A stretch of DNA of 22,330 nucleotides from a virus, in IMG/VR virus record IMGVR_UViG_3300025698_000063, positions 1 to 22,330 of that record. One strand, written 5' to 3'. A model generated the notes under the pieces. The model ran no database searches. It worked only from the letters and a program-made list of their open reading frames with translations, and was not told the origin of the DNA. Below, one piece after another: positions 8,274 through 15,130 of the stretch; the first letter of the stretch is position 1, and each line of letters starts with the position of its first letter. Made by a program: the position numbers and the translations under genes.

Positions 8274-9065
8274 TCAGTCTTGCGTATGCTCGAATGACCA
8301 GCTTGGTATTTGGAGCGTCTGGAGTTCGCCGTAGCCGTAGTCCCAGACGTCCGTTTTACGCGCTGTAGAATATTTCTCCAGTGCGTATCTCGTTGCGGCT
8401 TCACCTTCTTTAAGTGAACGCCAATCTAATTCGTAAACGCCAACGTGGTGTGGCGCTTCTTTGCCAACAGATATGAATATAAACCTGTCGATCTCATAAC
8501 CTTCCAGAGCCATGACCCTGCGATAGAAGGCATCCTGTATGTGATAGCCAAACTGAGCGCATTGCCGACTGAAGCCAGCGGGATCAGGCGAGATTGTCGT
8601 TTTCAGATCTATCAGCGCGGCAATATCACGACGCCATCCATCTGGGCGCGCCCGCAAATCTACACCGTATATCTCATCCTTTGCAAATACGCTTGCCTCA
8701 CACACAAGATCTCCACCTAGAAGGCTGGCCGCTGCCTTGTTCGATCGCACGGCGGTAGCCATGCCCTCTGCGAGCTTATAGTCCGCCTCGGTCAGTAGCA
8801 GCGCGCCACTTTCCTCTGCCTCCTCTTTCAGCTCGGACCATGCCTTGCCGCGACGTGTCTCTGGACCGCACCACACTGTAGACGCCAGCGCCGGTTCGAA
8901 TACCAGCGTGTGCGCAGCGGTTCCAACATCAAAAGCGTTGCTGTGTTTGCGCACGCCATATTTAAAGTCGGACAATGATTTCTGCGCGATCGTCTTAGCG
9001 CCAGACGCGCTGAGAGCGTCCATATCGTGGTATTCTTCGTTGGTCATTGAGAAACTGATGCTCAT
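8274..9065 (-). CDS. RecE / lambda-exonuclease-like PD-(D/E)XK nuclease
   Basis: The protein (263 residues) probably resects DNA ends for recombination. It shows the exonuclease VIII/PDDEXK order: GTAAHTLVF (H52), LRARPDGWRRD (D142), ALIDLKTT (D153, K155) and QFGYHIQDAFYRR (171-183), the Q-x-x-x-Y helix. The N-terminal segment YHDMDALSASGAKTI resembles the start of DUF3799/RecE C-terminal domains. The ATG at 9065 overlaps the upstream nuclease stop as ATGA and has GGGAG eight bases before it. With the downstream SSB-like gene it could form a phage recombination pair, although no annealing protein (Beta, RecT or Erf) is recognised nearby. Confidence 0.88.
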   Translation of the reverse strand: MSISFSMTNEEYHDMDALSASGAKTIAQKSLSDFKYGVRKHSNAFDVGTAAHTLVFEPALASTVWCGPETRRGKAWSELKEEAEESGALLLTEADYKLAEGMATAVRSNKAAASLLGGDLVCEASVFAKDEIYGVDLRARPDGWRRDIAALIDLKTTISPDPAGFSRQCAQFGYHIQDAFYRRVMALEGYEIDRFIFISVGKEAPHHVGVYELDWRSLKEGEAATRYALEKYSTARKTDVWDYGYGELQTLQIPSWSFEHTQD

Positions 9066-10326: not shown

Positions 10327-10767
10327 ATGCTTGCTTCAATATGCCTTGCAATGGCTGTTTACTATGAAGCCCGCTCAGAGCCGCTTGACGGCCAGCGTGC
10401 CGTCGCAGATGTCGTCTTGGCTCGCACATACCATCCATCATACCCAGACACGGTTTGCGAAGTCGTCGCTGAAGACCGTGGCAGCAAGGACTGGGACTGC
10501 CAGTTTAGCTTCATGTGTGACGGCCTTCCAGAGCGCCCTACAGGCGCTGCATGGGCCACTGCGCAGGCCGTAGCAGCCAAGGCAATCGCTGAACCAGCCA
10601 TTGTTCACGCCACGCATTACCACACGGTAAATGTGAAGCCTATCTGGCGGAACGATTTGACCGTAGTCGGTAAAATCGGCTCTCATATTTTCTATTCAGA
10701 TGGCAGTTGCCACTTGCCAACGTGTTCACTGCGCCCCGTGGCGCGACCAGAAGGAGAAGCAGAATGA
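10327..10767 (+). CDS. SleB-like cell wall hydrolase
   Basis: This 146-residue protein fits the Hydrolase_2 (SleB catalytic) family, which cuts peptidoglycan glycan strands. AMAVYYEARSEPLDGQRAVA carries the catalytic Glu (E14), followed by VLARTYHPSYPDTVCEVV, CQFSFMCDG, HATHYHTVNVKPIW and KIGSHIFY, all conserved blocks of the family. It starts almost at the domain border, with a short hydrophobic N-terminus that might act as a weak export signal. AGGAGG lies eight bases upstream. It is unusual to find it among small regulatory genes rather than in the lysis cassette at 14108-15656. Its C-terminal 89 residues are duplicated in the gene at 11382. Confidence 0.88.
   Translation: MLASICLAMAVYYEARSEPLDGQRAVADVVLARTYHPSYPDTVCEVVAEDRGSKDWDCQFSFMCDGLPERPTGAAWATAQAVAAKAIAEPAIVHATHYHTVNVKPIWRNDLTVVGKIGSHIFYSDGSCHLPTCSLRPVARPEGEAE
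10498..10763 (+). repeat. Duplicated segment, copy A (SleB C-terminal half)
   Basis: Codons 58-146 of the hydrolase align with codons 140-231 of the gene at 11382: CQFSF-CDG, AAW-TAQ, YHT--V-P-W, IG-HIFY-DG, then CSLRP-ARP. Some DNA blocks are still identical, for example TGCCAGTTTAGCTTC and TGTTCACTGCGCCCC. The copies have diverged to roughly half identical residues, judged by eye. Confidence 0.8.
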
Positions 10768-10931: not shown

Positions 10932-11382
10932 CGGAAACATACACGAAAACAACAGACGCCTCGACGACCGTGAAGACTTTGACGCACTGCAAGAAGTCAC
11001 TGCCGAGCTTGATCGGGCAGAGGCTCGGATTGAGCAGCTTGAGGCTGAGCTTTCAGAACAAGTCGGATGGGTAAGGCATATGGCTGAGGACCTTATTGCA
11101 GCAGAGGCCAAGCTGGCGAAGGAGGCGGCTGTAGAGGCAATCGTTGTGGATGACACATGCATGAGGTCCCGCACCACCCTCGCAGAAATAAAGGGAGAAA
11201 CAGAAATGACCAAACAACAAGAACTCGACGACCTCAAGGACGCAGTGGCAAGCTGGCGCAAGCAGCGCGATGCGCTGGCGGCTAAGTATCAAGGCGTCCG
11301 CCCGTCATATGTCAGCACCGATCTGGCGATACTGGAAGAGCGCATTCAGCGCTATGTGGCACAGATTAAGGAGATGGAATAA
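10924..11382 (+). CDS. Coiled-coil protein with an internal in-frame start
   Basis: The 152-residue protein has a long heptad-patterned helix from about residue 12 to 65 (DALQEVTAELDRAEARIEQL and onward), then a linker (TTLAEIKGETE) and a second helical domain starting MTKQQELDDLKD. The start has AAGGAG seven bases upstream and overlaps the previous gene by 8 bp. Before the second domain, a ribosome-site leader nearly identical to the one at the gene start (AGGGAGAAACAGAAATG at 11192-11208) could start a 58-residue product from 11206. The gene may be two former genes joined in frame, or encode two products. Biochemical role unknown. Confidence 0.75.
   Translation: MTDGNIHENNRRLDDREDFDALQEVTAELDRAEARIEQLEAELSEQVGWVRHMAEDLIAAEAKLAKEAAVEAIVVDDTCMRSRTTLAEIKGETEMTKQQELDDLKDAVASWRKQRDALAAKYQGVRPSYVSTDLAILEERIQRYVAQIKEME
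11191..11208 (+). promoter_or_regulatory. Internal ribosome-binding site and start inside the coiled-coil gene
   Basis: AAGGGAGAAACAGAAATG copies the leaders AAGGAGAAGCAGAATG (10751-10766) and AAGGAGAAACAGAATG (10911-10926), which begin real genes nearby. It is in frame with the coiled-coil gene and would give a 58-residue C-terminal protein (11206-11382). Confidence 0.5.
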
Positions 11383-12077
11383 TGACAAGTGAAGAAATAA
11401 TAGAGGCACTGCGTAAAGCCTCAAGGATTGGCCTCACAGCAGCACAGGCCGCTGAGATGATTGGCATCGCCGCAAACACTGCCCGCCGAAGGGCAAAGGC
11501 GGCGGGGTTTCAGTTTGTGAACGCGCGCCGAGTTTTGAACCAAGCAATTCGAGACGAGCAGATTGTGACCAAGAAAAAAGTCGAAGCCAAAAAGGCGGCA
11601 CAGACGTATCAAAAGCGAATTGATGACATCAAGAAAAAAGCCGCTGGGATAAAATGTCCGATTGAGCGCAAGGAGATGATTTATGGCGCGGCGCTCTTGG
11701 CCTTTGAGAGACGGCAACATGATGACGACAAGCGCCCAAAACCGCCCTGCGATGTGGTTAAGCAGCCAAGTCGCCGCCCAGTGACGCGCCCAGCCGCTTG
11801 CCAGTTTAGCTTCTGGTGCGACGGCAAAGACGACACGCCCCACGACAAGGCAGCGTGGCAGACAGCCCAGCAGATCGCCGCACAGGCGCTCTCAGGCGAT
11901 ACTCTGGGGCATGGAGCCGCCTACTATCACACGACCGAGGTGTCGCCTGTGTGGGCCAGCAGCCTTGAGCATGTCGGCCTGATCGGCGGTCACATATTTT
12001 ACACTGACGGAAAGTGCCTTCTGGCGCTGGGCTGTTCACTGCGCCCCAAAGCGCGACCACAGGGAGACGTGTTATGA
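11382..12077 (+). CDS. Chimera: HTH protein fused to the C-terminal half of a SleB-like hydrolase
   Basis: This 231-residue protein joins two unrelated parts. Residues 1-60 contain a DNA-binding HTH (GLTAAQAAEMIGIAANTARR, followed by RAKAAGF). Residues 61-138 are a Lys/Arg-rich helical and then Pro-rich linker. Residues 140-231 match the C-terminal half of the upstream hydrolase (CQFSFWCDG, AAYYHTTEVSPVW, LIGGHIFYTDG, CSLRPKARP). The part carrying the catalytic Glu (YYEAR) is absent, so wall hydrolysis is unlikely unless it pairs with the full enzyme. The ATG overlaps the previous stop (TAATG) and has AAGGAG eight bases upstream. The fusion is in frame and intact, so it may have been kept for a new role. 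Confidence 0.85.
   Translation: MTSEEIIEALRKASRIGLTAAQAAEMIGIAANTARRRAKAAGFQFVNARRVLNQAIRDEQIVTKKKVEAKKAAQTYQKRIDDIKKKAAGIKCPIERKEMIYGAALLAFERRQHDDDKRPKPPCDVVKQPSRRPVTRPAACQFSFWCDGKDDTPHDKAAWQTAQQIAAQALSGDTLGHGAAYYHTTEVSPVWASSLEHVGLIGGHIFYTDGKCLLALGCSLRPKARPQGDVL
11799..12073 (+). repeat. Duplicated segment, copy B (fused to HTH gene)
   Basis: This is the second copy of the hydrolase C-terminal half (copy A at 10498-10763), 1.3 kb downstream in the same orientation. It starts at the CQFSF block and runs to the ARP-x-G end, stopping almost exactly where copy A's reading frame stops. Recombination of related phage genes or a local duplication could both explain it. Confidence 0.8.
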
Positions 12078-12226
12078 TTGAGTGTGAACAATGCAACGGT
12101 GCTGGCGAGTGTGAGGTTAATTATTACATGCCGCATTACAGTGCCTGAGATGTCGGGTTTATTGAAACGAAAATTGAGGAATGTGACTGGTGCGGTGGCA
12201 CTGGTGAAGTTGAGGAGGACGAATAA
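12074..12226 (+). pseudogene. Double CxxCxGxG zinc-knuckle protein interrupted by in-frame TGA
   Basis: From the ATG at 12074 (ATGA overlap with the chimera's stop) the frame encodes MIECEQCNGAGECEV...PHYSA and then meets TGA at 12146-12148. The same frame continues DVGFIETKIEECDWCGGTGE to a TAA at 12224-12226, whose last base is the A of the next ATG. Both halves carry one DnaJ-type CxxCxGxG motif, and the 50 codons fill the gap exactly. It is therefore one gene with a nonsense codon: a recent mutation (for example CGA to TGA), a sequencing error or a readthrough site. If translation stops, the first 24 residues keep a single motif. In other phages such tiny proteins have unknown roles. Confidence 0.7.
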
Positions 12227-12861
12227 TGGTTAATATAATCGGAACAATCGGAGAATTTAGAAGTGTCAGACGCAACAATAATAACGCAGCGCCTACTGAG
12301 GTTGAATGCCGTAATGCTGGAGCAGTCGGAGAAAGCGGACAGACCAAACCTGCGCCAGCAACTGCAAGCCTAGCAAGCATTGATGGAGATGCTAGAACGC
12401 TCCCTCCAGCGGTGACAGATGCGGAGAAAGCTGAGGAAAGGCTTGGTATAGCTATGCTGCGCGAGGCTTTAAATGATCCGTTGATACCAAACCCCGAAAA
12501 GTGGCGTAAGGCGACGGCGTTTGCTCAAGCGAAGCGTTTGCAACTCACAAAAGAGCGTCGTGAGCGTGTTAAGAAATACGCAGAAGAGGGTATAATGACA
12601 ATCTCGGAAGTTGCCAATATTGAGGGCGTCGTTCCAACCACTATTCGCCAAGATTGTCAGCTCTTAGGCGTGCGACTTCATGCCAGCCAGATCAAGGTGT
12701 CGCCGTACCAAGGCGAAATATCGGATCGACGCGACAAACTTGAGGAAATGGCACTAACGGGAATGACACGCGCTGCGGCTGCTGTTGAACTAGGCGTGTC
12801 CGAAGGTACGGTGCGACGCGACCTGCTAGTGGCACGTATTAAATGGAAGGGAAAAGACTAA
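12226..12861 (+). CDS. Protein with two HTH motifs, probable DNA-binding regulator
   Basis: The 211-residue protein has a disordered N-terminus (about 1-65, Asn/Ala/Pro-rich), a helical middle and two HTH-like segments: TISEVANIEGVVPTTIRQDC (125-144) and MTRAAAAVELGVSEGTVRRD (180-199). GAGGAGG seven bases before the ATG gives a strong site, and the start overlaps the upstream TAA. It may control phage genes from the divergent region or mark replication sites. No close family is recognised. Confidence 0.78.
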   Translation: MVNIIGTIGEFRSVRRNNNNAAPTEVECRNAGAVGESGQTKPAPATASLASIDGDARTLPPAVTDAEKAEERLGIAMLREALNDPLIPNPEKWRKATAFAQAKRLQLTKERRERVKKYAEEGIMTISEVANIEGVVPTTIRQDCQLLGVRLHASQIKVSPYQGEISDRRDKLEEMALTGMTRAAAAVELGVSEGTVRRDLLVARIKWKGKD

Positions 12862-13058
12862 TGTCGGACAGGCGCATATTGATGCTAGAAAATAATCTCA
12901 ACGAAGCAAGGACACTTATTAGCGGTTTGCAGAGCAAGGTCGCACGCCAGCGCGAGGACGTGACACGTTTGCGCAATCGCGTAGACACGCTGATGCTGGA
13001 TAAAAAAGAAATCACAAAAAATCTCAACGAGCTACGGGAGGCGAATGATGGCCGATAA
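12861..13058 (+). CDS. Small coiled-coil protein of unknown function
   Basis: The 65-residue, almost entirely helical protein begins MSDRRILMLENNLNEARTLI and continues with a leucine/valine heptad pattern (VTRLRNRVDTLMLDKKEITK). It overlaps its neighbours at both ends (TAATG at the start, 14 bp at the end). It probably oligomerises; no function can be given. Confidence 0.7.
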   Translation: MSDRRILMLENNLNEARTLISGLQSKVARQREDVTRLRNRVDTLMLDKKEITKNLNELREANDGR

Positions 13059-13419
13059 CAAACGTCATCCTATCAAGGAGCAAACCAAGCAAATCTGGCG
13101 AATGTCAAACGAGGGCATGTCTGGTAGGAATATCACTAAAGCCCTCGGTCTAAATCGCGGCGTTGTCAGTGGTGCCATCAATCGCGGGCGTAAATCAGGA
13201 CACTGCAATAAGAAGGTCCGCACAAAGACTACCGCTCACAACGAAAGCCCACTGACTTATGGTTATATTGGCCAAGTCATTGATGCGCTATCTCTGGAGC
13301 AGCTTGACTGGCTGTTTGTTGAAAGCGAGGCTGTCGGGTGTAGTACCACCGCAGAATTTATTGCAGAGTTGGTGCGAGACGCACACGCGGAAGCAATGGC
13401 AAGGGAAACCAACCAATGA
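13048..13419 (+). CDS. GcrA-like HTH protein
   Basis: This 123-residue protein has, near residues 13-48, IWRMSNEGMSGRNITKALG followed by LNRGVVSGAINRGRKSG. This resembles the N-terminal HTH of GcrA, the alphaproteobacterial cell-cycle regulator (W-x-EG-S-x-x-I-x-x-x-LG-x-R-x-x-V-x-G). The C-terminal half is helical (SLEQLDWLFVESEAVG) and not recognised. GGGAGG is better spaced for the second of two adjacent ATGs (13048) than the first (13045). If truly GcrA-like it could mimic or compete with the host regulator; that is speculative. Confidence 0.75.
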   Translation: MADNKRHPIKEQTKQIWRMSNEGMSGRNITKALGLNRGVVSGAINRGRKSGHCNKKVRTKTTAHNESPLTYGYIGQVIDALSLEQLDWLFVESEAVGCSTTAEFIAELVRDAHAEAMARETNQ

Positions 13420-13727
13420 CTAAAGCAGTCAAGCACGACGCAGAAAAGCCACGGGTGGACTTGTTTCCACCTCAAGCAATATTGGCCATCTCGGAGGTGC
13501 TAGGTTACGGCGCTGAAAAGTATTCCGACCACAACTGGCAAGAGAACGGCGGCATGGAGTATTCAAGGATGTATGCGGCTGCACAGAGGCATATGCTGGC
13601 GTTCTGGGATGGTGAGCAGGCAGACGGGGAGACGGGCATGTCACACCTCGCCCACGCGGCCTGCTGTATCGTTTTTCTGTTAAGCTATGAGATCGACGGC
13701 AACGGCATCGACGACCGCCGCGATTAG
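13416..13727 (+). CDS. dATP/dGTP diphosphohydrolase-like (MazG-like) protein
   Basis: The sequence KHDAEKPRVDLFPPQAILAI, then GAEKYSDHNW, MYAAAQRHMLAFWDGE and MSHLAHAACCIVFLLSYE reproduces the conserved order of the phage dATP/dGTP diphosphohydrolase N-terminal family, which is related to all-alpha MazG-type enzymes. Such proteins adjust nucleotide pools during infection and, in some phages, accompany modified-base pathways. The 103 residues are a usual length for single-domain members. The ATG overlaps the previous stop as ATGA. Its stop overlaps that of the opposite gene (TTAG at 13724-13727). No modified-base synthesis gene is seen in the window. Confidence 0.82.
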   Translation: MTKAVKHDAEKPRVDLFPPQAILAISEVLGYGAEKYSDHNWQENGGMEYSRMYAAAQRHMLAFWDGEQADGETGMSHLAHAACCIVFLLSYEIDGNGIDDRRD

Positions 13728-14308: not shown

Positions 14309-14474
14309 CTTCGACCTCTTTCGCTGTCAATATTTTCTCAAGGCGATCATCCTTGATTTCGTATTCTAACTCATCGCGGCCATCGGCACGGCCCCTGTAG
14401 TACACGGTTACAATGGCCAATGCCGCAGCGCCGATCAACGCTGCATACAGCTTTAGTTTACCCAGCAAAAACAT
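14232..14474 (-). CDS. Inner-membrane spanin (Rz-like)
   Basis: The 80-residue protein has one N-terminal membrane span (LYAALIGAAALAIVTVYYRG) and a charged periplasmic helix (KDDRLEKILTAKEVEDELQN) that ends as the outer spanin frame takes over. Its ATG shares one base with the amidase TAA. Membrane anchor, coiled-coil-like periplasmic part, position after the amidase and overlap with the lipoprotein gene all fit the inner spanin. Confidence 0.85.
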   Translation of the reverse strand: MFLLGKLKLYAALIGAAALAIVTVYYRGRADGRDELEYEIKDDRLEKILTAKEVEDELQNASDADIAARASRWVRSDSDG

Positions 14475-15130
14475 TATCTGTCGCCCTTATTCCATTTACT
14501 GAGACGCTCCAAATCAATCACGCCCAGCGCCACCATCGCTACCACTGCCAGAACCCCCATGATCGCTAGGTTCTGCCAAGGCAGACCACCTACAACACCA
14601 ACAAGCGGCGTGGCGACAGATGCCATCTTTGCAACAGAAGAAGCTTGGATTGTCTTGGTTTGGGCAATCCTCTTTCGCTCTGGCTTTTTCTCGGTTTCTG
14701 CGCTGTTTAGCCATGATGTCACTTGAAAGCACGGACATTGCTTGGCCGAAACCTCGTTATGTCCACGCACCTTTGTGATTGACGGGTATTCCATGCGCAG
14801 TTGAGCAATTAGCTTGCGCAGCGCACGATCCTGTTCAGGCGTAAAGTTTTCCTCAAACTTGTCGTCTTGATTTCCGCCGTGTCCACCCCATAGGGAGATA
14901 GCCACTGAACCCGTGTTGTGGCCCTTCTGCGCGGCTGGCGTCTTTTCAATTGGGCGACCTTCAGTAATCGTTCCATCACGGTCCACGAAATAATTATAGC
15001 CCACGTCAGACCATCCTCGGTCCAAATGCCAACGCTTGCACTCGGCAGCTTTCTCGCTGGACCGACGGCCAGCCCACCACTCTGCGCGTGTTGCCGTGCA
15101 ATGTACGAATATGCTATCTAGTTTTCTCAT
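14474..15130 (-). CDS. Endolysin: N-acetylmuramoyl-L-alanine amidase with C-terminal membrane segment
   Basis: The 218-residue enzyme cuts the bond between muramic acid and the stem peptide. Residues 1-140 match the Amidase_2/T7 lysozyme fold: FVHCTAT (H10), GYNYFVDRDGTITEGRP (45-60), GHNTGSVAISLWGG, and VRGHNEVSAKQCPCF with H124, K130 and C132 corresponding to the zinc and catalytic residues. A charged linker is followed by a hydrophobic region at about 172-205 (LVGVVGG, then LAIMGVLAVVAMVALGVI), giving one or two membrane spans. That tail is unusual for T7-type amidases and suggests membrane-tethered or self-exporting activity. AGGAG lies eight bases before the ATG. Confidence 0.93.
   Translation of the reverse strand: MRKLDSIFVHCTATRAEWWAGRRSSEKAAECKRWHLDRGWSDVGYNYFVDRDGTITEGRPIEKTPAAQKGHNTGSVAISLWGGHGGNQDDKFEENFTPEQDRALRKLIAQLRMEYPSITKVRGHNEVSAKQCPCFQVTSWLNSAETEKKPERKRIAQTKTIQASSVAKMASVATPLVGVVGGLPWQNLAIMGVLAVVAMVALGVIDLERLSKWNKGDR

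Follow-up and report, generated by a model that had tools for sequence, protein, structure and literature searches.

Mosaicism in phage genomes is fed in similar share by illegitimate and homeologous recombination events, and the RecET system promotes recombination between sequences of 5-13 bp (PMC2327257). A second reference point is provided by the SleB-CwlJ hydrolases (Pfam PF07486, Hydrolase_2; PDB 4FET and 4F55), the activity of SleB requiring an essential catalytic glutamate (PMC12331253), and a third by small phage HTH proteins of the type found at loci L009 and L015 (195-203 aa; weakly matching phrog_2727).

The window analysed here, 22,330 nucleotides of an IMG/VR viral record, encodes an open reading frame that has its residues 1-122 in common with the L009/L015-type HTH proteins and corresponds in residues 123-231 to the C-terminal part of the PF07486 domain. 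Unlike the HTH proteins it is without their conserved C-terminal part, and unlike the SleB-CwlJ hydrolases, of which two intact relatives discussed below (hydA and hydB) are full members, it is without helices 1 and 2 bearing the catalytic Glu. As in the phage mosaicism already described (PMC2327257), similarity is absent up to a short shared sequence and stands at 100% beyond it, the module gene order is kept on both sides and recombination genes are present, the mechanism here being read from the sequence only; unlike in that case, the joint cuts through two genes that are unrelated to each other, and the resulting chimeric ORF is in frame. Very probably, the chimera is a recent and nearly neutral product of out-of-register recombination between two phages. 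Rather than a novel type of regulator, the fusion would most likely be a chance outcome of ordinary phage recombination.

Composition of the chimeric reading frame

The frame opens with an ATG and remains intact over 231 aa. Its start overlaps the stop of the upstream coiled-coil ORF (TAATG, 11380-11384), its end overlaps the start of the next gene (ATGA, 12074-12077), and it is composed of residues 1-122 of an HTH protein followed by the last 109 residues of hydB. Promoters and terminators near the gene showed no excess over shuffled sequences, and no family passed for the chimera in an NCBIfam search.

Table 1. Positions of the chimera, its parts, the two joints and related features in the window.
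Feature	Position	Strand	Match
RecE/exonuclease VIII-like nuclease, candidate part of the joint-making machinery	8274..9065	-	PF12684 7e-25, phrog_412 4e-70
hydA, SleB-like hydrolase, intact and with the Glu motif VYYEAR (not the donor)	10327..10767	+	
Coiled-coil ORF upstream of the chimera, stop overlapping its start	11206..11382	+	
Chimera, 231 aa, in frame (HTH half followed by the truncated half of a SleB-like hydrolase)	11382..12077	+	PF07486 3.3e-13
Part derived from the HTH protein (residues 1-122), with HTH, basic helical region and YGxALxAFE motif	11382..11747	+	70% identical to L015
Stretch of 1541 bp shared with L007 (intact hydB, unrelated upstream)	11747..13287	+	100% identical to L007
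Recombination joint on microhomology TGCGATG, common to hydB (L007) and HTH relatives L015/L035, L038 and L047	11748..11754	+	
hydB-derived part, residues 123-231, without helices 1 and 2 and the catalytic Glu	11748..12074	+	100% identical to L007
Second joint GCTTGCC, where the relative G004/L006 exits the chimera into an L054-type terminator	11796..11802	+	

The Pfam match of the chimera to PF07486 is clear (3.3e-13; 50.5 bits against a gathering cut-off of 27), and of the 100 profile positions it covers only 20-100; for the hydrolase at 10327 and that of L007 the match begins at positions 2-3. Because the match begins at profile position 20, the Glu-bearing start is missing from the chimera, and with it the catalytic Glu motif of the first helix (Y-x-E-[AGS]-R), in which E17 and R19 are invariant in 17/17 aligned intact relatives of the hydrolase.

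The C-terminus of the chimera is 53% identical to hydA over 90 aa (E 1e-21). At the DNA level, positions 11747-13287 match L007 at 1541/1541 nucleotides, with zero changes right of the joint, and left of the joint 19/60 nucleotides match, which is chance level. In L007 hydB is intact, with its Glu-bearing helices present and a VYHEGR motif (ACLALAVYHEGR). Judged by these DNA identities, the hydrolase half derives from hydB, a second and diverged allele, and not from the local hydA copy. In L018-L020 a gene of the 12074 type follows hydB, as in the right part of the window, and in L018/L019 the similarity runs on into the 12226 region (about 69-74% DNA identity over hydB and the 12074/12226 genes). 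Since L018 and L019 keep hydB with these two genes directly behind it, the right flank of the window is also native.

The HTH in the N-terminus of the chimera gave weak Pfam matches below the cut-off, and its relative in L015 passes the cut-off of PF20432. The parent family (L009/L036, L015/L035, L037, L038, L040-L042, L046 and, in part, L047) comprises proteins of 195-203 aa with a shared N-terminus and a conserved C-terminus (...LEIxGxxFxSRxxAAEALGVSRGE...); this second helical region, with the SRxxAAEALGVSRGE.. stretch, is replaced after residue 122 in the chimera. The sequences searched did not include the exact HTH donor allele, the nearest being L015 at about 70% identity, and the HTH parent had no match among isolate phages. 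In L009 and L015 the gene order is hydrolase, coiled coil, full-length HTH, which matches the left part of the window. The gene orders are native on both sides of the joint, so in the window two native arrangements meet out of register. The putative HTH half of the chimera may still bind DNA.

An initial annotation, made from the letters of the window, had described an intact frame overlapping its neighbours, a SleB-like hydrolase part and the loss of the Glu-bearing half. The start codon, frame and overlaps given above bear out the first of these, PF07486 and the best fold matches (the SleB catalytic domains 4FET and 4F55) the second, and the partial profile match the third. It had also let the hydrolase part begin at residue 140, behind a basic linker, as a duplicate of the hydrolase at 10327. 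A hydrolase part is present, but it starts at about residue 123 (nt 11747/11748), so the end of the supposed linker (VVKQPSRRPVTRPAA) belongs to it; likewise the similarity to the 10327 gene stands, but the source is hydB.

The joint at TGCGATG and its proposed origin

Similarity changes abruptly at one point between two kinds of parent, of which the HTH parent is represented by relatives of about 70% identity only. The window reads CCGCCC-TGCGATG-TGGTT, L007 reads ACGGTC-TGCGATG-TGGTT and the HTH relative L015 reads CTGCCA-TGCGATG-CACCC; TGCGATG stands at the corresponding place in three of seven HTH relatives. As the exact HTH donor was not found, we infer the length of homology on that side from these relatives. 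The codon phase at the joint is zero in the window, L007 and L015 genes alike, and the frame was therefore kept, for which the chance expectation is one in three.

In the proposed sequence of events, one phage would have carried hydA, the coiled coil and the HTH gene in this order, and the other hydB with the genes at 12074 and 12226 behind it. A crossover on the shared TGCGATG would have cut the HTH gene in the first phage and hydB in the second and, with reading frames that matched by the one-in-three chance, would have left the 231-aa ORF. Wall hydrolysis, if required, would be supplied by hydA, and the chimera would at most retain part of the HTH protein's function; the persistence of the fusion would reflect its recent origin and near neutrality. 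As the agent of the joint, a RecE-type exonuclease of a phage working with an annealing protein is plausible, and RecET recombination between 5-13 bp sequences would fit. Besides the nuclease in Table 1, the window encodes a RusA-like nuclease/resolvase; no annealing protein was recognised in it.

That the frame might be a fresh recombination product, one of several readings offered by the initial annotation, is strongly supported by the two kinds of parent, the exact joint, the absence of any change to its right, the microhomology and the further joints described below. On the comparisons made here, the locus is a case of ordinary phage mosaicism with a well-resolved joint, and neither a regulator nor a decoy nor a new system. 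The open frame, the translational coupling and the sharing across otherwise unrelated backbones could also be explained by function. No sign was seen in the sequences that selection has made or is keeping the fusion, and they are too alike to test for it.

The case is an unusually well-resolved example of phage recombination making in-frame chimeric ORFs, in that one can see side by side an intact parent at 100% identity, sequences related to the second parent, the shared 7 nt and, in another contig, a subsequent joint of 7 nt. It cautions against taking such ORFs for designed multidomain regulators, and provides a test case for the persistence of newborn fusions.

Recurrence of the fusion in other contigs

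Scanning IMG/VR contigs with the chimera protein gave 28 loci. L003, L004 and L005 match it at 100%, L005 only up to the contig end, and L006 matches residues 1-140 at 99%. A junction scan of viral contigs found the joint in four contigs and the window and in no others; the four belong to four metagenome ids other than that of the window's record, and the joint lies in three flanking contexts. None of the genome contigs scanned carries the fusion, isolate phages match the chimera in the hydrolase half only, no diverged version or wider family appeared in the viral and genome contig scans, and a search for the reciprocal product (hydB start joined to HTH end) returned none. A widespread architecture, considered as a candidate, was rejected on these counts. 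The initial annotation had taken uniqueness to its sequence together with decay as counting against its reading; the fusion is indeed confined to these contigs, but shows no decay.

G001 and G002 match the window at 99.9% over 10.9 kb and at 99.8% over 11.1 kb, respectively, and both contain hydA and the chimera. G003 (18.9 kb; locus L048) has only 686 bp in common with the window, namely the coiled coil and the chimera up to the contig end. L056 and L057, to which the G003 backbone is 98.8-99.8% identical, carry a gene resembling dCTP deaminase (by eye) and no HTH directly after the coiled coil. G004 has the left side of the G003 type. Over the coiled coil and chimera the identity to the window is 99.4% for G003 and, as far as 11802, 99.2% for G004. 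Inside the shared coiled coil and chimera, G003 differs from the window at one base and G004 at two (SNPs of their own at 11328 and 11469); the only substitution inside the chimera is A30S in G004. In one phage type (L048/G003, L055-L057), the coiled-coil gene is directly followed by either the dCTP deaminase-like gene (by eye) or the chimera.

In G004 the ORF stops after 158 aa, with nearly all of the hydrolase half gone. At this second joint 7 nt are shared, and the site is a hairpin-plus-T-run resembling a terminator. The hairpin, within positions 1110-1180 of L006, is a creation of this joint: its left arm comes from hydB and its right arm from the L054 terminator, and seven T follow. The several short-homology joints, two of them of 7 nt, imply that the region recombined at least three times. 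Near-identical linkers comprising ribosome site and start (GGAGAARCAGAATGA) stand at 10753, 10913 and 11194, ahead of successive genes. The linker also occurs in L056-type phages, and G003 and G004 switch type there, so gene-start linkers may act as recombination sites.

An assembly or library chimera, in place of a real molecule, might be suspected in metagenome contigs, one of which (G003) ends within the chimera. This origin is barely credible given the identical joint in contigs of four other metagenome ids and the exact 1541 bp on its right; moreover, the 7-8 nt of homology at the joint are much shorter than the k-mers that assemblers usually employ, the G003 and G004 copies have SNPs of their own, and window-type and B-type backbones have only about 30 exact nucleotides in common, at the coiled-coil start. 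The recurrence in four metagenome ids, the short homology and the copies' own SNPs lead us to consider the joint real as far as sequence comparison can tell.

Backbones otherwise without detectable DNA similarity (window/G001/G002, G003 and G004) have a segment of 0.6-0.7 kb in common that varies by no more than two bases downstream of 11205. Together with the intact frame and the overlapping neighbours, this would be compatible with a functional fusion that spreads, the coiled coil and chimera forming a selected cassette in which the chimera serves as an HTH regulator or partner binder and the hydrolase half as a tail. We consider this unlikely, since the near-zero divergence leaves too little time for selection to show, the G003 contig ends inside the chimera so that full length was not seen there, G004 is without nearly all of the hydrolase half, and that half is not confidently predicted to fold. 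That the coiled coil and fusion are a newborn functional cassette, acting as a regulator or protein-binding factor, passing between unrelated phages of one environment and sampled soon after it arose is, in its turn, quite improbable.

Predicted fold and neighbouring genes

AlphaFold modelled intact hydB with a pLDDT of 77 and a pTM of 0.77, and the model matched the SleB catalytic domain 4FET (E 5e-6, TM 0.79 by target). Its first helices, residues 6-18 with the Glu at the end and 23-38, are confident, and the joint comes later, at about residue 47. For the chimera the values are 58 and 0.32, almost every residue from 117 to 163 lies below 50, and the elements modelled with confidence in hydB fall to about 45-70; the mixed alignment may partly lower this confidence, and the chimera model is accordingly support and not proof. 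With the hydrolase half at low confidence and helices 1-2 absent, the chimera does not form a complete lysozyme-like fold in the model. The safest reading is that this half is a dead enzyme half, presumably devoid of hydrolase activity.

These results bear on two further proposals of the initial annotation. A regulator borrowing a wall-binding half finds no backing, as the half that is kept is what remains of a catalytic domain and is no wall-binding module of its own, its fold confidence drops sharply in the fusion, and G004 has lost nearly all of it. A role of the chimera as decoy for, inhibitor of or partner to the intact hydA could draw on the presence of that hydrolase in the same genome (window, G001/G002), but hydA is only 53% identical to the allele that supplied the hydrolase half, the truncation takes out core helices, and G003 and G004, both fragments, have no other Hydrolase_2 gene; such a role is very improbable.

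Among the neighbouring genes, the small one at 12074-12229 (+) has two CxxCxGxG motifs with the look of a DnaJ-type zinc finger. In the window and L007 its frame is broken by a TGA at 12146-12148. L018-L020 have an Arg at this site (SRDVG), so the TGA has the appearance of a nonsense mutation, and the gene that of a dispensable one. The gene at 13416-13727 (+) encodes a dATP/dGTP diphosphohydrolase N-terminal domain (PF18909, 1e-34); PHROGs labelled endolysin or RNA polymerase inhibitor also match it, and are probably mislabelled. An Amidase_2 gene with a C-terminal hydrophobic stretch (14474-15130, -) is a more conventional candidate for the endolysin of the phage.
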